Shown here piece after piece: positions 1,702-11,939 of a stretch of DNA of 42,016 nt; within the stretch, counting starts at the first letter, position 1, and every line of letters starts with the position of its first letter. Under the pieces are notes generated by a model that was not told the DNA's origin, did not search any database, and saw only the letters and a program-made list of their open reading frames with translations. This stretch comes from Betaproteobacteria bacterium. Lineage in GTDB: Bacteria; Pseudomonadota; Gammaproteobacteria; Burkholderiales; Usitatibacteraceae. Where the stretch lies: contig JAABQW010000298.1 of NCBI GenBank assembly GCA_011391275.1, positions 1 through 42,016 on the forward strand, read 5' to 3'. The position numbers were made by a program, and so were the translations under genes.

Positions 1702-3585
1702 ATGGCGACGCCCAGCGCACCCACCCCCGACAAGAAGGCACGCGGACCGGCCCTCGCCGCGATCGCACGCCGGCTGTGGAGCCAGCCCCGGTCGCGAAGC
1801 GTGGTTCTCTACCTGCTCGTGGCGGTCTTCCTCGTCGCGGCGAGCCGGCTGCCAAACCGCGAGGACGCGCCGCTCGCGATCCTCGAGCGCCTCGCTTTCG
1901 ACTACCAGATGCAGGTCCTGCGCGACCACTGGCCGCACCCCATCGAGAACGACGTGGTCCTGGTCGGCATCGACGAGGGCAGCGAGGAGGTCTTCACGGA
2001 GCCCGTGGCGCTCTGGCACAGGCACTTCGCGCGGCTCTTCGTCGCCCTCGCCGAAGCCCGGCCCCGCGCGGTGGGGGTCGACGTGGTGCCCCCGGAGCGC
2101 TCGTACGACGACATCGTGCCGGGTTACGACCTCGCGCTCTTCCGTTCCATCCGCGACCTTCGCCAGAAGACCGTCGCCGTCTTCGCGCTTACCGTCGACC
2201 GGGAGGGACGCGCGGCGCGCATGCACCCGACGTTCGCGCGCGTGATCGGCGAAGAGGGCCTGGGCATCGACCAGCAGTTGCGGGACCCGGACTCGGTCTC
2301 GCGCCGCTTCGACGAGGCGGCCCTCGGCACCGAGCGGACCGCCCGCACGCTCGTCGGGCAGATGCTCCGCGGCCTGGGCCTTCCGGTGGAGGCGGGCTAC
2401 ATCGACTACAGCGTCGGCGCGCGGATGGAGTACATCCCCATGCAGGACGTCATCGCCTGGAAGGAGCAGGGCCAGTCCGAGCGGCTCCGGGCGGCCTTCG
2501 CCGGCCGCATCGTGCTCGTGGGTTACGTGCTCAAGCGTGCCGACCGCTGGGAGCTGCCGGTGCGCCTGATCGACGTCGACCGGGCCGACGGGCGCGCGCG
2601 ACTCAGCCAGCCAGGCGTCATCACCCACCTGCAGGTGATGCGCAGCCACCTGGCGAGCGGCCTGCTGCAGCCGATGGGGGAGGCGCTGCGCTGGTCCCTG
2701 TGCCTGCTCGCCGCCGGCCTCGTCTTCTTCCACTTCCGCCTCGCGACTGCCCTCGCGATCGTCCTCGGCCTCACCGCCGTCGTGGGCGGCGCCGGCCTCT
2801 ACGCCATCCGCGCGCACCAGGTCCTGGTGCCCGTCGCCTCCATCGCCTTCACGATCTGGGCCGGCTTCGTCACGCGGGCGATCGTGGACGGCATAGAGAA
2901 CACCGTCGAACGCGGCCGCCTGCGGCGGACCTTCGCGGGGCAGGTGAGCCCCGCGGTGATGAACGAGATGCTCGCGGGGAGCCTCTCCCCCGGCGTGAGC
3001 GGCCAGCTCGCCGACGTGTGCATCCTCTTCAGCGACATCCGGGCGTTCACGACGCTCTCGGAGCGCATGCCCCCGGTCGTCGTGACCACCGTCCTGCAGC
3101 GGTACTTCGACCGCATGGTGCACGCCGTCCACCGCCACGAGGGCACCGTCGACAAGTTCATCGGCGACGGCCTGATGGTCCTGTTCGGGGCGCCCCGGAA
3201 GTCGGACGATCCCTGCGGCGACGCGGTGAAGTGCGCGCTGGACATGATGTCCGAGCTCGACGAGCTCAACGCGGAGTTCGAGAAGGAGGGCCTGCCGACG
3301 CTCGTCATAGGCATCGGCATCAACTTCGGCACCGTCACCGTCGGCAACATAGGATCGTCGGAGCGGCACAATTATTCGGCCATCGGGGACGCGGTCAACG
3401 TGGCCGCGCGGCTGGAGGGGCTGACCAAGGAGCTCGGGCGTAAGATACTCATTACCGAGTCCGTGGTGAGCCGGATGGGGGAAGGGTTTCACTTCGACCC
3501 GCTGGGCACCCACCAGATCAAGGGACACAGCCCCGTGGGCATCTGGGGCATCCGCACGGCGCGGCCGGCGCCTGCGGCGACATGA
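1702..3585 (+). CDS. CHASE2-domain membrane adenylate cyclase (class III)
   Basis: A 627-residue sensor that should convert ATP to cAMP in the cytoplasm in response to an extracytoplasmic signal. Layout: one membrane segment at about residues 34-52, a CHASE2 sensor domain outside the membrane to about 325, a run of membrane segments at about 330-400, then a class III cyclase domain. The catalytic set is complete: metal-binding Asp445 (FSDIRAF) and Asp489 (KFIGDG), adenine-selecting Lys485 and Asp563 (AIGDAVN), and transition-state Asn566 and Arg570. Lys plus Asp point to ATP rather than GTP. It is followed directly by two secreted FecR-like proteins and a secreted caspase; the next gene's ribosome-binding site lies at this gene's stop codon, so translation is likely coupled. 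No cAMP receptor gene is seen nearby. Confidence 0.92.
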   Translation: MATPSAPTPDKKARGPALAAIARRLWSQPRSRSVVLYLLVAVFLVAASRLPNREDAPLAILERLAFDYQMQVLRDHWPHPIENDVVLVGIDEGSEEVFTEPVALWHRHFARLFVALAEARPRAVGVDVVPPERSYDDIVPGYDLALFRSIRDLRQKTVAVFALTVDREGRAARMHPTFARVIGEEGLGIDQQLRDPDSVSRRFDEAALGTERTARTLVGQMLRGLGLPVEAGYIDYSVGARMEYIPMQDVIAWKEQGQSERLRAAFAGRIVLVGYVLKRADRWELPVRLIDVDRADGRARLSQPGVITHLQVMRSHLASGLLQPMGEALRWSLCLLAAGLVFFHFRLATALAIVLGLTAVVGGAGLYAIRAHQVLVPVASIAFTIWAGFVTRAIVDGIENTVERGRLRRTFAGQVSPAVMNEMLAGSLSPGVSGQLADVCILFSDIRAFTTLSERMPPVVVTTVLQRYFDRMVHAVHRHEGTVDKFIGDGLMVLFGAPRKSDDPCGDAVKCALDMMSELDELNAEFEKEGLPTLVIGIGINFGTVTVGNIGSSERHNYSAIGDAVNVAARLEGLTKELGRKILITESVVSRMGEGFHFDPLGTHQIKGHSPVGIWGIRTARPAPAAT

Positions 3586-3596
3586 AGGAGGTCCAC

Positions 3597-4439
3597 ATGA
3601 AAACGACACTTCGCGCACTCCTCGCCACGGCGGCGGCCCTTGCGGCGATCACGGCGCTGGCCGCCGACGGCATCGCGTTCATCACCAACCTCAAGGGCGA
3701 GGCTTCCGTCGACGGCGCCCCGCGCCCGCTGCTCATGAGCGAGCTGGCCAGGGGCCAGAAGATCGCCGTGGGCAAGGAGGGCCAGGTGACCGTGATGTAC
3801 ATCCAGTCGGGCAAGGAATACCAGCTGAAGGGCCCAGGCGACTACTCGGTGGGCGAGCGCGGCATCGACGCCGCCCACGGCATCCCCCCGGCGGCCCGCG
3901 AGACGCCGTGGCGCGCGAACAGCGAGGTCCTCGTGAAGGTCGCGCAGTCGTCGTCGGCCAGCATCCGCATGCGCTCGATCGCCCCAGCGAAGCCCGCGGC
4001 GAAGGCGAGGCTCGACTTCCCGACCCGCGGCGCGGTGACGCAGTTGCAGCCGACCCTTCGCTGGACGGCGCCGGACGCGAAGGCGCAGGCCGACGTCGCG
4101 ATCGCCGTCGCGGGCAGGGAGGACAAGCCGGTCGCCAAGGCGCGCGTTGCGGCCACGAGCCACCGCTTCCCGGTGAAGCTGCAGCCCGACACGGAATACG
4201 CCTGGACGGTTTCCGTGGCCGGCGAGGAGATCGGGGCCGCGCGGTTCCGCACGCTTCCCGCGGCGGCCATCCAGGGCGCGGAGAAGCGGCGCCCCCCCGA
4301 GAGGGCGGAGTTCACCGATCGCCTGATGTACGCGCTCCTGCTGCAGGAAATGGGTGCGGAGCAGGAGGCGCAGGAAGCCTGGGGCAAGCTGGCCCAGGAG
4401 CGAACCGACCTTCCGGAGCTCGAGAGCCTCGCGAAGTAG
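3597..4439 (+). CDS. Secreted FecR-like domain protein, copy 1
   Basis: A 280-residue exported protein of unknown function. It has a Sec signal peptide (KTT, a hydrophobic Ala/Leu run, then ALAADG near residue 22). The next 80 or so residues (TNLKGEASVDG..., VTVMYI...GKEYQLKGPGDY) resemble the beta-strand FecR-type domain. A probable immunoglobulin-like section follows (LQPTLRW...YAWTVSVAGEE), then a helical tail (LLQEMGAEQEAQEAWGKL) that looks like a TPR hairpin. ATG 3597 is chosen because AAGGAGG lies six bases before it; ATG 3582 would lack one and overlap the cyclase. About 21 bases downstream is a paralogue with the same layout. In this position the pair could act as envelope sensors or partners of the CHASE2 domain; that is inference. 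Confidence 0.85.
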   Translation: MKTTLRALLATAAALAAITALAADGIAFITNLKGEASVDGAPRPLLMSELARGQKIAVGKEGQVTVMYIQSGKEYQLKGPGDYSVGERGIDAAHGIPPAARETPWRANSEVLVKVAQSSSASIRMRSIAPAKPAAKARLDFPTRGAVTQLQPTLRWTAPDAKAQADVAIAVAGREDKPVAKARVAATSHRFPVKLQPDTEYAWTVSVAGEEIGAARFRTLPAAAIQGAEKRRPPERAEFTDRLMYALLLQEMGAEQEAQEAWGKLAQERTDLPELESLAK

Positions 4440-4460
4440 GAACGCGCCGGGGATACGACC

Positions 4461-5288
4461 ATGAGACCCGTCGATCGCGCTCTTTGCATCGGCCTTTTTT
4501 TCCTCGTTTCGCTGGCTGCGCGTGGGGCCGACCCCGTCGCGTTCGTCTCGGACTTCCGGGGCGAGGTCGCGGTGAACGGCGCCGGCCGCCCGGCCTTCCT
4601 CGCCGAGCTGCTCCCCGGCACGCGGCTCGTGCTGGGCCGGGACGCCAGCGCGTCGGTGATGTACGTCGTGGCCGGGGAAGAATTCTCCCTGAAGGGACCG
4701 GGCGAGTTCGTCGTGACCCGGCAGGGGGTAAAGGCCGAAAAGGGGAGCGCGCCTGCCAGCCGCATCCCCGCGGTCAAGGCGAACATGGCGATCCTGGTGC
4801 AGACGTCGCGGGCGGCCACCGCCAGCCTGCGGATGCGCAGCGCCCCGGCACCCAGGAGCGAGAAGGCCGGGCCGGCCTATCCCGTGGGCGCGAAGATCGC
4901 CACGCTCCAGCCGACCCTGCGATGCGCAGGCGACGCGAACGCCAGCCACGCGGTGGTCGTGACCACGGCGGCGGGAAAGGAGGTGTTCCGCGGCGGCACC
5001 AAGGGGACATCGATCCGCCTGCCCGTGCGCCTCGCGGCCGGCCAGGGTTATGCGTGGACCTGTGCCACGGGCACGGGCGAGCCGGCCGAGGCCCGGTTCG
5101 AGACGCTGCCGGCGGAGGCGATCGCGACGGCCGAAAAGGCGCGCGCGGCCGCCCGGACGTTCCCCGACCGCGTCCTCCTGGCGATGCTCCTCCAGGAACT
5201 CGGCGCGGCGCAGGATTCGCGGGAGGCGTGGGCGCAGCTCGCCGGGGAGCGCCCCGACATTCCCGAACTCGCGGGGCTGGCACGCTGA
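4461..5288 (+). CDS. Secreted FecR-like domain protein, copy 2
   Basis: A 275-residue paralogue of the preceding gene with the same order of parts: signal peptide (CIGLFFLVSLAARGAD), FecR-like strand region (SDFRGEVAVNG..., SVMYVVAGEEFSLKGPGEF), Ig-like section (LQPTLRC...YAWTCATG) and helical tail (AMLLQELGAAQDSREAW). The copies agree best in the FecR-like core and the tail and differ in the linkers, so the duplication is not recent. This copy has two cysteines in the Ig-like section where copy 1 has none that match (LRC for LRW, WTCA for WTVS); they could form a disulfide in the periplasm. Function unknown. Confidence 0.83.
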   Translation: MRPVDRALCIGLFFLVSLAARGADPVAFVSDFRGEVAVNGAGRPAFLAELLPGTRLVLGRDASASVMYVVAGEEFSLKGPGEFVVTRQGVKAEKGSAPASRIPAVKANMAILVQTSRAATASLRMRSAPAPRSEKAGPAYPVGAKIATLQPTLRCAGDANASHAVVVTTAAGKEVFRGGTKGTSIRLPVRLAAGQGYAWTCATGTGEPAEARFETLPAEAIATAEKARAAARTFPDRVLLAMLLQELGAAQDSREAWAQLAGERPDIPELAGLAR

Positions 5289-5331
5289 GCTTGCCGTCGG
5301 GCATGGCGTCTTGAGCGATAATCCGCGGTCC

Positions 5332-5356
5332 GGCCCCGGGCTTCGCGCCCCGGGCC
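5332..5356 (+). promoter_or_regulatory. GC hairpin just upstream of the caspase-MORN start
   Basis: GGCCCCGGGC (5332-5341) can pair with GCCCCGGGCC (5347-5356), ten positions with one C-C mismatch, around a short TTCGC-type loop. It ends ten bases before ATG 5367, and no Shine-Dalgarno sequence is seen there. There is no T-run, so it is not a standard terminator. It may limit or stabilise translation of the caspase. A weak GATAAT (5317-5322) just upstream could be a -10 element, but its best -35 (TTGCCG at 5291) is 20 bases away. Confidence 0.4.
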
Positions 5357-5366
5357 CGCCAAGACG

Positions 5367-7361
5367 ATGACGACAGGAATTCCCGCCACCCGCCTGCGCA
5401 CGATCGCCGCCCTCGCCGCGCTGGCGATCCTCGTGGCCTTCGCGCCGGCCGCGATGGCCAACGGTCGCGTGGCGCTCCTCATCGGCAACAACGCCTACCC
5501 GTCCTCGCCGCTTCGCAACGCGGGGAACGACGCGCGCGACCTGGGCGCGGCGCTCCGGGAGATGGGCTTCAAGACGATCGTCAAGGAGAACACGTCGCGC
5601 GCGCAGATGATCGCGGCGCTGCAGGAGTTCGGCAAGGCGCTCGACGGCGCCGAGGCGGCGCTCTTCTTCTATGCGGGCCACGCGATGCAGTTCAAGGACC
5701 GCAACTACCTCATCCCCATCGACGCGGTCATGGGATCCGAGGACGACGTCACGTTCTTTTCCGTGGAGGTCTCGCAGGTCTTCGACCGCATGGAGCGTGC
5801 CCGGACGCGCTTCAACTTCGTCATCCTGGACGCCTGCCGCGACAACCCCTTCCGCGACACCTTCAAGGTCTCCGCCACCGGTCTTGCGCAGATGGGCGGG
5901 CCTTCCGGCACCCTGATCGCATACGCGACCGCGCCAGGCGCCACGGCCGCCGACGGCTTCGGCCGGAACGGCATCTACACGGGCCACATCCTGCAGAACA
6001 TCAAGGTCCCGGACATGCCGGTGGAAGTCCTCTTCCGCAAGGTCCGCGAAGGAGTGGAACGCGACACCAAGCGCCTGCAGACGCCGTGGGAACTCTCGTC
6101 GATCAAGGGGGACTTCGTCTTCAACGCGACGGGGCGCCAGCCCGCCGCGGGCACCGGCCAGGCGGGCGCCGGCCCGTCGGCCGACATGGCCGCGCAGCTC
6201 GAGCTCCAGTTCTGGAAGAGCGTGCAGGACTCCAGCAACGCCAACGACATCCAGGCCTACCTCGAGAAGTATCCCAACGGCGTCTTCGCGTCGCTGGCGC
6301 GCAATCGCGTCGATTCGATGCTGGGGCGCGGGCGCGCGGCAGCGGCGGCGGCGCCTGCCGCATCGCCCGCCGTGGTGCCTCCCCCCGCGACGGCGGCAAC
6401 GTCGGCCACTTCGCCGCCGGCGACCGCCGCGAAGGAGGAGCCGGCACCCGCCGTGGCGGCGGCAAGGGTGGCGACCGCGCCGCCCTCCGTCACTGCCGCC
6501 TCGCCATCGGCGGCCCCGGCGGCAGCCGCGGCGCCGGCTGCCCCTCCAGCGCCCAAGCCCAAGGACGACCAGCCCGGCCGGGAGATCGCCCCCGGGATAC
6601 GCGAAGTGACCTTCGCCGACGGTTCGGTCTACGTGGGCGGGATGCGCGGCATCCAGTTGCACGGCAAGGGGCAGTACACCTCCAAGGTCTTCAAGTACCA
6701 GGGCGAGTTCCTGGACGGGCTCAAGCACGGCACGGGCAAGTACGAATGGGAGAACGGCGATCGCTACGAAGGCACCTTCGCCGACGACCGCCCGAACGGC
6801 AGCGGCAAGTACCAGTTCGCCAACGGCGACACCTACGAAGGCGAAGTGAAGGCGGGCGTGGTGGCCGGCCGCGGCACGTACGTGACGAAATCCGGGGACC
6901 GCATCGAGGGGTCCTTCGTCGGGGGGCTCGCCAACGGGACGGGCATCTACCGCTTCGCGAGCGGCGATCGCTACGAGGGCGAGCTTGCCGGTGGCAAGCC
7001 CCACGGCAAGGGGCGCTACTTCGCGAAGGGCGGCGACCGGATCGAGGCTCCGTTCGTGGACGGGCTGGCGCACGGCAAGGGCGTCTACTACTTCTCCAAC
7101 AACGACCGCTACGAGGGCGACATCCGCGAGGGGGCGCTCACGGGCACGGGGGCCTACTTCCATGCCTCCGGCCAGAAGTACGAGGGCGAGATGGTCAACG
7201 GGGTGCCGCAGGGCAAGGGGACCTTCTGGTTCGCCGACGGCTCGCGCTTCGAGGGGGTCTTCGAACGCGGGCTCGCCCGGGCCAAGGGGGCGCTGGTCAG
7301 GCCCGACGGCAGCCGGACGGACGCCGAGATCATCGACGGCGGGGTGCGCCTGCCGGGATGA
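5367..7361 (+). CDS. Secreted caspase-family (C14) protein with ten MORN repeats
   Basis: A 664-residue exported protein. Order: signal peptide to about residue 31; a caspase-like peptidase domain to about 250 with catalytic His105 (YAGHAMQ) and Cys157 (LDACRDNPF); a helical segment near 275-320 (FWKSVQDSSNANDIQAYLE) often found with bacterial caspases; an Ala/Pro-rich linker; then ten back-to-back 23-residue MORN repeats (pattern RYEG.F..G..HGKG.Y.F..GD) from about 420 to 650. The Cys-His pair is intact, so it should cleave peptides, probably after a basic residue as in other prokaryotic caspases (family knowledge). MORN repeats are used for membrane or protein binding. The signal peptide puts it in the periplasm or outside. 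It ends the cluster begun by the cyclase, 78 bases behind the second FecR-like gene. Confidence 0.9.
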   Translation: MTTGIPATRLRTIAALAALAILVAFAPAAMANGRVALLIGNNAYPSSPLRNAGNDARDLGAALREMGFKTIVKENTSRAQMIAALQEFGKALDGAEAALFFYAGHAMQFKDRNYLIPIDAVMGSEDDVTFFSVEVSQVFDRMERARTRFNFVILDACRDNPFRDTFKVSATGLAQMGGPSGTLIAYATAPGATAADGFGRNGIYTGHILQNIKVPDMPVEVLFRKVREGVERDTKRLQTPWELSSIKGDFVFNATGRQPAAGTGQAGAGPSADMAAQLELQFWKSVQDSSNANDIQAYLEKYPNGVFASLARNRVDSMLGRGRAAAAAAPAASPAVVPPPATAATSATSPPATAAKEEPAPAVAAARVATAPPSVTAASPSAAPAAAAAPAAPPAPKPKDDQPGREIAPGIREVTFADGSVYVGGMRGIQLHGKGQYTSKVFKYQGEFLDGLKHGTGKYEWENGDRYEGTFADDRPNGSGKYQFANGDTYEGEVKAGVVAGRGTYVTKSGDRIEGSFVGGLANGTGIYRFASGDRYEGELAGGKPHGKGRYFAKGGDRIEAPFVDGLAHGKGVYYFSNNDRYEGDIREGALTGTGAYFHASGQKYEGEMVNGVPQGKGTFWFADGSRFEGVFERGLARAKGALVRPDGSRTDAEIIDGGVRLPG

Positions 7362-7436: not shown

Positions 7437-7565
7437 ATGGCCGAACGCAAACGTACCCGTCGCAACACCCTCGAGCGCCGTTGCCTGTCCAAGGCCTTCA
7501 AGCGCCTGTTTCACGGCGCGTCGAAGTCCACCTTCAAGGTGCTGGAGCAGATCAAGAAGAACTGA
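7437..7565 (+). CDS. Small basic protein of 42 residues, function unknown
   Basis: This short frame begins MAERKRTRRNTLE and ends FKVLEQIKKN. It has a well-spaced AAGGAG and a perfect TATAAT upstream, which supports real expression. The protein is strongly basic (Arg/Lys-rich N-terminus and C-terminus), has one cysteine and no membrane segment, and could form two amphipathic helices. It might bind nucleic acid; no family is recognised. It has its own promoter-like element, separate from the caspase gene ending 75 bases upstream, and is followed by GC hairpins. Confidence 0.6.
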   Translation: MAERKRTRRNTLERRCLSKAFKRLFHGASKSTFKVLEQIKKN

Positions 7566-10319: not shown

Positions 10320-11939
10320 TCAGGCCGCCTTGCGGCGGAAGAGCGCCGGGACGGCGTGCGTCGAGCGCTTGCGCCCCGGGGCCTCGTCGGGCTGCTCGAT
10401 GGGCTTGGCGTCCGCCGCGGGCTCGTAGGGCTTGGAGAAGTCCATGTCGCCAGCCCCCGGCTTCGGGGCGGATCTGGGCGGGCGCTCCTCGGCGCGCTTC
10501 CCGGAGCGCGGCGGGCGATCATCGGCCTGCCTTTCCGTGCGCGGCGGGCGATCATCGGCCTGCCTTTCCGTGCGCGGCGGGCGATCATCGGCCTGCCTTT
10601 CCGCACGGGGAGGGCGCACCTCGGTCTGCTTGTCCGCGCGGGGAGGGCGTTCCTCCGTCCGCTTGTCGTCGCGGGGCGGCCGGCTGCTGCGCTCGGCGCC
10701 TCGTTCCGCGCCTCGTCCGCCGCGGGCCCTGCCACGGCCGCGCTCGCCGCGCGAGTCCTCCGGGATCTCGCCGGGATAGGTCGCCGCGCGCGTGCCGTCG
10801 AAGCCGGGCACGGGCCGGACCTCGATCTTCTTCTTGATGAGCGCCTCGACGGCCGCGAACATGGGGCGGTCCTCGGCGCAGACGATGGTGATGGCCTCGC
10901 CTTCCATCCCGGCCCGGCCGGTGCGGCCGATGCGATGCACGTAGTCCTCGGCCACGGTGGGCAGGTCGAAGTTCACGACGTGCGGCAGGGCCTCGATGTC
11001 GAGGCCGCGCGCGGCGATGTCGGTGGCCACGAGCACGCGCACCTTGTTCTGCTTGAAGCTCTCCAGCGCCTCGATGCGGGCGTTCTGGCTCTTGTTGCCG
11101 TGGATCGCCGCGGCGTTGATGCCGTCGCGCTCGAGCTGGTAGGCGAGGCGGTTGGCGCCGTGCTTGGTCTTGCAGAAGACGAGCACCTGCTCCCAGTTGT
11201 TGGTCTTGACGAGGTGGGCGAGGAGCTCGCGCTTCCTCTTCGACTCGACCATGTGCGCCCACTGCGTCACGGACTCGGCCGGCGTGTTCCGGCGGGCCAC
11301 CTCGACGGTGGCCGGGTCCTTCAGGAACTGCGCGGAGAGCTTGCGGATCTCGTCCGAGAAAGTGGCGGAGAAGAGCAGCGTCTGCCGCGAGCCCGGGATC
11401 GTGTTGATGATGCGCTTGATGTCCGGGATGAAGCCCATGTCCAGCATGCGGTCGGCTTCGTCGAGCACGAGGATCTGCACGTGGCGCAGGTCCACGGCCT
11501 TCTGTCCCATGAGGTCCAGCAGGCGGCCGGGCGTGGCGACGAGGATCTCGACGCCCTTGCGCATCTCGGCGATCTGCGGGTTGATGTTGACGCCGCCGTA
11601 GACCACGAAGGGCTTGAGCGCGATGTGCTTGCCGTAGGTCTTGACGCTTTCGTAGACCTGGATCGCGAGTTCGCGCGTCGGCGTGAGGATGAGGCAGCGC
11701 ACCGGGTGCAGCGCGGGCGAGAAGCTCTTGCTCGCGTACGGGGCGAGGCGCTGCAGCAGGGGCAGGGTGAAGCCGGCCGTCTTGCCGGTACCCGTCTGGG
11801 CCGCGCCGAGCAGGTCGCGCCCGGCAAGGACCACGGGAATTGCCTGCGTCTGGATGGGCGTGGGTTCTGTGTAGCCTTGTTCCGCGACGGCGCGGAGCAG
11901 CTCGGGCAGAAGCCCGAGACTTTCGAAAGCCTGACTGAT
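10320..11939 (-). CDS. DEAD-box RNA helicase (RhlE-like), apparent ATC start
   Basis: An ATP-dependent RNA helicase that should remodel RNA in ribosome assembly or decay. From ATC 11939 it has 539 residues. The Q motif (F5 and GYTEPTPIQ, about 22-30), motif I AQTGTGKT (47-54), DEAD in LVLDEADRM (about 160), SAT in LLFSATF and [10 protein letters not shown] (about 340) are all present. The C-terminus is a long basic, repetitive tail from about residue 385. No ATG, GTG or TTG precedes the Q motif in this frame; the first standard start (GTG 11834) would delete it. ATC 11939 has AGGAG six bases before it, so it is the best start. The 5' leader is long (over 100 bases), as in cold-regulated helicases. 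pepN follows after nine bases. Confidence 0.88.
10473..10675 (-). repeat. 33-bp tandem repeats inside the helicase C-terminal tail
   Basis: Three near-identical 33-bp units run from 10506 to about 10602 (unit starts 10506, 10539 and 10572), each coding the 11 residues [11 protein letters not shown]. More degenerate units flank them on both sides ([31 protein letters not shown]). The unit is a multiple of three, so copy-number change would keep the frame. The encoded tail is basic, disordered and probably RNA-binding. Confidence 0.85.

Follow-up and report, generated by a model that had tools for sequence, protein, structure and literature searches.

In Magnetospirillum, mtxA is followed by a CHASE2-adenylate cyclase gene (PMC4439547), and this pair is the closest described relative of the gene cluster considered here. 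The cluster lies on a stretch of 42,016 nucleotides (the window; contig JAABQW010000298.1) from a betaproteobacterium of the family Usitatibacteraceae, and encodes a CHASE2 cyclase, two secreted MtxA-like proteins and a caspase-MORN protein. MtxA (PDB entry 4z29) resembles the secreted proteins of the cluster in that it is secreted, consists of an N-terminal domain and a Big/FN3 and TPR part joined by a flexible linker, and has a CHASE2 cyclase gene next to it (PMC4439547). It differs in that the accessible text of the MtxA paper mentions no caspase-fold partner, which is a frequent third part here, and describes close orthologues in five organisms and no other homology, whereas here the family is wide (PMC4439547). 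The pair of MtxA and CHASE2 cyclase is already in print; the caspase-fold gene that also stands beside MtxA-like relatives is new. In the open-access literature searched, no paper was found on the threesome of CHASE2 cyclase, MtxA-like protein and caspase-fold protein or on CHASE2 together with a CHAT domain, and none among the matches listed pairs MtxA with a caspase or CHAT.

Two other systems combine CHASE2 receptors with extracytoplasmic proteins. The CyaD1/CyaD2/CyaK-Clr cascade of S. meliloti likewise has CHASE2 cyclases, a cyclic AMP (cAMP) output and extracytoplasmic helpers, one of them with a FecR domain; its signal arrives via the outer-membrane protein NsrA, and the accessible parts of the papers mention no caspase-fold gene (PMC5498481, PMC13001267). 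A plasmid carrying CyaD1 without CHASE2 gives constitutive cAMP, so that CHASE2 appears, from the part of the paper available, to restrain the CyaD1 cyclase (PMC5498481). The Burkholderia BiofilmReg operon (response regulator, LysM-FecR protein, CHASE2 kinase, DUF4136) is similar in joining a CHASE2 receptor to a secreted protein; it has a kinase in place of the cyclase, a true FecR/LysM protein and, as described in the accessible text, no peptidase (PMC5192318).

The peptidase has relatives of its own. Orthocaspases, metacaspases and human MALT1 share the C14 fold and the His-Cys dyad; the caspase of the window differs from them in that it is predicted to be exported, is fused to MORN repeats and adjoins a receptor cyclase. 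The TPR-CHAT peptidase of Craspase acts with a CRISPR effector inside the cell. The peptidases of the sister loci described below have the same TPR-CHAT architecture, as far as the accessible accounts of Craspase show (PMC9729208, PMC10028731), and differ in having N-termini that look signal-like by eye. A fusion of CHASE2 to a metacaspase is recorded in Trichodesmium (PMC3501461, PMC2853523).

Gene order, domains, conserved catalytic residues and the recurrence of the neighborhood across the phylum can be read directly from the genomes. We give an even chance to the proposal that the cluster, working as set out below, is one version of a widespread envelope module made of a CHASE2 cyclase, an MtxA-like adaptor and an exported caspase-fold peptidase.

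The proteins of the cluster

The draft genome from which the window comes has 320 contigs totaling 3.27 Mb and a completeness of about 81%; the cluster is also carried by the complete genome of Betaproteobacteria bacterium GR16-43. The four open reading frames (ORFs) follow one another on the + strand at 1702-3585, 3582-4439, 4461-5288 and 5367-7361. Their main features are as follows.

1702..3585, + strand: CHASE2 receptor-type class III nucleotidyl cyclase of 627 amino acids (CHASE2 ~1825-2718, cyclase domain ~3007-3540; Pfam)
3597..4439 (ORF from 3582), + strand: MtxA-like secreted protein A, with signal helix, beta domain, linker, FN3 and TPR-like part (structure model, Foldseek, profile)
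3966..3977, + strand: Arg-Met-Arg-Ser in the linker of protein A; its second Arg, R126, is kept almost throughout the wider family
4461..5288, + strand: MtxA-like secreted protein B, paralogue of A (42% identity)
4830..4841, + strand: Arg-Met-Arg-Ser of protein B, from the alignment of the paralogues
5317..5322, + strand: -10-like box GATAAT 5' of the caspase gene, kept in the intergenic regions of the family
5367..7361, + strand: caspase-MORN protein of 664 amino acids, predicted exported (caspase domain 5466-6116, MORN array ~6579-7349)
5679..5681, + strand: codon of the catalytic His105, invariant in 15/15
5835..5837, + strand: codon of the catalytic Cys157, invariant in 15/15

The original prediction, made from the letters of the window, had named four consecutive same-strand genes for an outward CHASE2 sensor with an intact cAMP-making domain, two secreted "FecR-like" paralogues and an exported caspase with intact Cys and His. 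The gene arrangement is as it described, and the descriptions of the four proteins agree with the results given here, cAMP synthesis and export being predicted; the FecR label has to be replaced by MtxA-like.

In gene 1, Pfam finds CHASE2 (expectation value, E, 1.4e-20) and Guanylate_cyc (E 5.4e-26), and a PDB search with the protein yields class III cyclases. By hydropathy, hydrophobic segments at residues 29-52 and 332-392 flank CHASE2, suggesting that this domain is external and the catalytic domain internal. Asp445, Lys485 (in DKFIGDG), Asp563 (in GDAVN) and Arg570 are all present. By analogy with class III cyclases, Asp445 is the metal aspartate, Lys485 and Asp563 are the adenine-type pair, and Arg570 has its usual role; with these assignments the enzyme is predicted to make cAMP. 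Genes for proteins that might bind the product adjoin related CHASE2 cyclases: a Crp-family gene in locus L073 (7317-8069, - strand) and a gene for a cyclic nucleotide monophosphate (cNMP)-binding GGDEF-EAL protein in L051 (10938-12578, - strand). Both are candidate cAMP effectors.

Genes 2 and 3 give no Pfam match above cut-off. The N-termini of proteins A and B are Sec-like by eye, a start at 3597 fitting protein A better than the opening of its ORF at 3582. The AlphaFold2 (AF2) model of protein A has a mean predicted local distance difference test score (pLDDT) of 88 and shows a signal helix, a beta domain (27-102), a helix (109-123), a low-confidence linker, an FN3 domain (138-219) and a helical C-terminus (222-280). 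Foldseek ranks the MtxA C-terminal structure 4z29_B first (E 4.8e-5, probability 1.00; 153 columns, root-mean-square deviation (rmsd) 5.6, TM-score 0.33/0.49). The best PDB sequence match of profile A4, built from 28 relatives, is likewise MtxA (4z29_A), at a modest E of 0.001. MtxA was not found at E<=1 with the smaller profile A2, nor was it among the 50 matches listed by VIA-align for the MtxA-like model, which are mostly FN3 domains and span the FN3 region. The N-terminal domain of MtxA is absent from the crystal, and the comparison of this part with protein A is that of the A4 profile alignment. The secreted paralogues thus resemble MtxA of magnetotactic bacteria, their best PDB match by fold and, weakly, by profile.

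The FecR identity finds no counterpart in these searches. None of the 27 members (27/27) has a Pfam FecR match at E<=5, and hhalign gives probabilities of 0.33% and 0.65% against a shallow profile built from 11 FecR domains and no support for the R126 region as the FecR motif VRGT. DUF928 gives weak Pfam matches in 3/27 members, the best at E 0.02. In one genome (G701; L085 1834-2738, - strand) the MtxA-like gene is split across two frames, possibly by a frameshift or an assembly error.

Gene 4 matches Peptidase_C14 (E 6.4e-35; 121.3 bits against a curated cut-off of 21.4) and MORN (E 1.8e-40). His105 and Cys157 are invariant in 15/15 aligned family caspases, as are Asp55 and Asp155; three of the 18 caspases were omitted from the alignment, two of them ending with their contigs (G003, G025) and one containing an in-frame stop (G026). 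In the AF2 model, a signal helix is followed by the caspase domain, a piece of three helices, an Ala/Pro linker that is disordered, and a MORN sheet, with pLDDT above 90 over most of the MORN part and a predicted template modeling score of 0.41, so that the placement of the domains is not fixed. VIA-align finds chains of the MALT1 paracaspase as the closest solved structures (Z 26.6, rmsd 2.8, 210 residues). MALT1 is Arg-specific, and Asp55 and Asp155 presumably correspond to its S1 residues. The likeness to MALT1 together with these residues would fit cleavage after Arg or Lys. The N-terminus is signal-like by eye and forms the signal helix of the model, and export of the caspase is predicted on these grounds. 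The original prediction held that export sets this caspase apart from cytoplasmic defense caspases; export itself stands as a prediction, while a secreted bacterial caspase is not unprecedented, the accessible texts describing a Bradyrhizobium PF00656 protein with a signal peptide (PMC3355149) and metacaspases with N-terminal transmembrane or signal helices (PMC3501461).

The window genome has another C14 gene (L053 4290-6122, - strand), with no signal peptide by eye and no cluster genes found nearby. G012 and G014, both complete genomes, carry a further C14 caspase gene next to a CHASE2 gene of about 870 codons (L131 6549-10993; L132 4897-9349), a pairing of a different type from the window cluster.

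Recurrence of the neighborhood

The secreted protein was found in 18 of the 28 genomes of the family, that of the window included. The window and all of its relatives with the secreted protein (17/17) keep the order and strand of cyclase domain, secreted protein and caspase; contig ends truncate CHASE2 in two loci and MORN in two. Both paralogues are present in 9/18 loci. Upstream of the cluster in the window is a gene (461-1672) that we take to be alcohol dehydrogenase-like (ADH), and the downstream genes on the - strand are presumably PepN and an RhlE-type helicase. PepN follows the cluster in 9 loci, and 8 loci (one g3, seven g2) have neither ADH nor PepN in the DNA examined, where both flanks are visible for several kb in L038, L040, L044 and L045 and one is short in L046-L049. 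The cluster is intact across four genera while its flanks change; in several genomes of the window's own genus the locus lies between the same flanks. The 10 family genomes without the secreted protein include 7 in which no C14 gene was found and three with C14 genes (G005, G020, G027), absence counts that are soft as at most six candidates per genome were scored in the alignment searches. No cluster remnant was found in G023 at L130. Spread on plasmids finds no support: a search of 72,556 plasmid records with P0002 finds no match at 1e-3, and none of the 221 plasmid records matched by the caspase query covers 80% of it.

Two features of the surroundings can be added. A basic ORF of 42 amino acids 3' of the caspase (window 7437-7565, + strand) has counterparts of 74-100% identity in 9 related loci (g1, g3, g4) and was not found in the g2 loci. 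The tail of the RhlE-type helicase gene (window 10432-10779, - strand) has near-identical tandem repeats of a basic, Arg/Pro-rich unit.

Beyond the cluster itself, a first set of 29 loci with MtxA-like relatives, six of them in the window's family, was scanned with our own profiles. A caspase-fold gene lies within ~10 kb in 19/29 (CHAT 14, C14 5), and CHASE2 was found in 24/29. Pfam agrees on the 14 peptidases sent to it, four being C14 and ten CHAT; the CHAT proteins also have TPR repeats, which in L050 and L071 score below the cut-off. The C14 protein of L092 has a weak CHAT match besides, and that of L081 combines WD40 with C14. Searching the genomes with the Pfam models confirms the peptidases of L079, L086 and L087 as well, and the calls in L072 and L076 rest on our own profile. 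The second set consists of 12 loci (L094-L105) from 10 genomes of other classes of Pseudomonadota, where a caspase-fold gene adjoins the MtxA-like gene in 10/12 (six CHAT, four C14). Six proteins of this set were given to Pfam, which finds CHAT in L094 and L101, WD40 and C14 in L097, a CHASE2-cyclase in L102 and CHASE2-GAF in L104; in L096 it finds WD40, and C14 is not among the matches listed. Seen by eye, the N-termini of 6/8 distant peptidases are signal-like, the other two ORFs (L103, L104) reaching the contig end. L102 connects this set with MtxA itself. Its protein, found by profile A4 (E 8.6e-14), matches MtxA by phmmer at E 7.6e-84, and the gene of this close MtxA homologue is flanked by a CHAT gene (E 1.2e-54 with our own profile) and a CHASE2-cyclase gene (by Pfam), all three sharing a strand.

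In total, a caspase-fold gene stands beside the MtxA-like gene in 29/41 loci (CHAT 20, C14 9), and a CHASE2-cyclase, an MtxA-like and a caspase-fold gene occur together in 21/41 (18 of the first set, and L094, L095 and L102). The 41 loci comprise full-length and some partial relatives, many partial matches to the beta domain or FN3 and edge fragments (G168, G320, G373) having been left out, and they include close kin: L050, L074 and L076 belong to one genus, L071 and L072 to Rhodoferax metagenome-assembled genomes, and L086-L088 to one genus. Four of the CHAT loci (L054, L086-L088) belong to the family of the window itself and represent a paralogous second locus there. In L078 (11136-14901, + strand) and L079 (5684-9254, - strand), two tandem C14 genes, the only C14 genes found in the respective genome, stand beside the MtxA-like gene. 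A surface protein with a two-partner secretion (TPS) domain is encoded near the CHASE2/MtxA-like/CHAT locus of L050 (3186-6995, + strand).

In a chance control, 15/19 loci have a CHAT or C14 gene within ~10 kb, against 0.38 expected under random gene placement. The control covers 19 loci in 18 genomes with all CHAT and C14 genes counted; the loci were chosen after the first-set result, the gene counts were copied by hand, the genome sizes are rounded, and the genomes are related rather than independent. It omits the negatives L082 and L091, the positive L076, four contig-edge loci and three further loci, all positive; with L082, L091 and L076 added, the count is 16/22 and the picture is unchanged. 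The single CHAT match of the genome is at the MtxA-like locus in G010, G012, G205, G156, G030 and G161, and both C14 genes of the genome are there in G198 and G335.

The original prediction regarded the four genes as one envelope signaling unit and proposed that free variation of the caspase's neighbors would mark the cluster as chance. Such variation is not seen, and the association has become stronger (17/17 relatives, 29/41 wider loci); a joint function may follow from it, and a single transcript for all four genes is doubtful. Co-occurrence, also proposed there as a check, is found for all three genes in 21/41 loci; the caspase-fold gene of the 29 wider loci is mostly CHAT rather than C14-MORN.

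A possible working of the module and its rivals

By combining these observations, it is possible to describe how such a module might work, with physical contact, direction of signaling and cleavage as the parts that we infer. The cyclase would sit in the inner membrane with CHASE2 facing the periplasm. One or two secreted, two-lobed MtxA-like proteins would contact CHASE2 and set the output of the cyclase. The exported peptidase, C14-MORN here and mostly CHAT with TPR repeats elsewhere, would be switched on as an Arg-type enzyme by an envelope condition sensed via its MORN (or TPR) array. It would then act on the MtxA-like protein, in the simplest case at the conserved Arg between the lobes or close by, and the edited protein would change the flow of cAMP to Crp-type effectors. 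The cleavage step, taken alone, is doubtful.

The proposed site is the second Arg of the Arg-Met-Arg-Ser motif, R126, which is present in 49/50 aligned relatives; the sole exception is L082, near which neither cyclase nor peptidase was found. Alignment A4, which omits L082 and in which identity to the window protein falls to 18%, has two invariant columns, and R126 is one of them. In the AF2 model the block belongs to the low-confidence linker (pLDDT 58), and the MtxA segment aligned to it by profile A4 is TVRRS. According to the accessible text, MtxA was trimmed by trypsin, the crystal containing residue 142 onward, and its small-angle X-ray scattering fits two lobes joined by a flexible linker (PMC4439547); the trimming is not far from the segment aligned to the linker Arg. 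Orthocaspases tend to cleave after basic residues, as far as the available text reports (PMC6426788). The first Arg of the motif is present in 27/27 cluster proteins versus 3/23 others. Arg-Met-Arg as a C14-specific cleavage signature was rejected, the second Arg being kept in 49/50 with or without a peptidase nearby. The near-invariant Arg is a candidate site of cleavage or docking on mixed evidence, and docking to CHASE2 is an equal candidate.

Several observations weigh against the proposed module. The linker Arg is kept in L051, L080, L083 and L084, where no CHAT or C14 gene is visible, and its role may therefore lie in structure or in docking to CHASE2, and not in cleavage. Around the Arg of the distant C14 loci L096, L097, L099 and L100, the local sequence is quite different, and CHASE2 was not found in the DNA examined there. 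No caspase-fold gene is seen in 12/41 loci, five of them at a contig edge (L052, L055, L074, L085, L098) and seven not (L051, L080, L082, L083, L084, L091, L105), and the full set with a CHASE2-cyclase is limited to 21/41. Weakly scoring WD40-C14 proteins make up some of the C14 partners (L081, L097 and probably L096). The cluster caspase frame of G026 (L049, - strand) holds one in-frame stop, due either to a broken gene or to an assembly error. A crude scripted export scan, run with no control, reports a candidate signal, in some cases a clearly spurious one, in 21/21 proteins and does not discriminate. An mtxA deletion was like the wild type under standard conditions, according to the accessible text (PMC4439547). 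Finally, in most genomes of the family the caspase gene is probably transcribed from a promoter of its own.

The last point bears on the explanation that ranks close behind the edited adaptor, in which the peptidase is the output: the CHASE2 cyclase would sense the envelope, cAMP and a Crp regulator would switch on the caspase or CHAT gene from its separate promoter, and the MtxA-like protein would target the peptidase to other envelope or surface substrates. We regard this as possible, though less than probable. A box [GA]ATAAT lies between the last secreted gene and the caspase in 15/18 family loci, against 0.5 expected from shuffling, most commonly in the context TTGAGCGATAAT or TTTGCGCAATAAT; GCGATAATCC occurs once in the window against 0.03 expected. 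The conservation of this -10-like box suggests that the caspase has a promoter of its own in most genomes. Separate promoters, which the original prediction had counted against a unit, are partly borne out as regards co-transcription and leave the association unaffected. A promoter scan of the window did not call the GATAAT box at 5317..5322. A filter for hairpins before the box finds them in G011, G021, G026 and, weakly, G025, and none in G017, G019 and G024. At the other end of the cluster, the cyclase and protein A frames overlap or are within ~15 bp in the g1 loci. The Crp and cNMP-binding genes beside some loci, the TPS-domain surface protein in L050 and a linker Arg that is not strictly tied to the peptidase are also in keeping with a peptidase as output. 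It fits less well with the three g4 genomes, where the gap to the caspase start used is 3-21 bp and co-transcription is therefore likely; in G010, one of the three, GATAAT would precede a later ATG.

An anti-phage or programmed-death system, with the cyclase as alarm and the caspase as executioner, is improbable. Bacterial caspases do occur in conflict systems. The PADLOC profiles for PycC and caspase match the two enzymes, and a component of bacterial conflict systems has been found fused to CHASE2, according to the part of the source available (PMC8195603). However, the cyclase belongs to the CHASE2 receptors of the membrane and has adenine-type residues, the caspase and the MtxA-like proteins look exported, and the same flanks surround the locus in several genomes of the genus. 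The model for EACC1-associated caspases (NF047832) scores 52.8 bits against a cut-off of 140, and the PADLOC scan of the four proteins gives only cyclase-fold matches and no match to a Pyc effector of Pycsar. Least of all can the caspase be an unrelated neighbor retained by chance of inheritance, as its separate promoter-like box and the hairpins between genes in some g2 genomes might suggest: the association persists though the flanks change, and it is found again, with another kind of peptidase, in genomes far removed from the family.

To return to the edited adaptor, it may be supposed more generally that across Pseudomonadota the exported CHAT and C14 proteins are periplasmic proteolytic switches on MtxA-like adaptors that gate CHASE2 cyclases, MtxA being one member. 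This extension is tentative and, on balance, unlikely. If true, it would represent a bacterial envelope counterpart of caspase signaling, in which site-specific cleavage controls a second messenger and not death. The recurrence of the neighborhood suggests that caspase-type enzymes take part in bacterial envelope signaling. The orphan MtxA family thereby acquires partners, and for the exported caspases and CHAT peptidases of bacteria there is now a plausible role and a specific protein that may be their substrate. The neighborhood further hints at how CHASE2 domains, few of whose inputs have been described, may learn of the state of the envelope.

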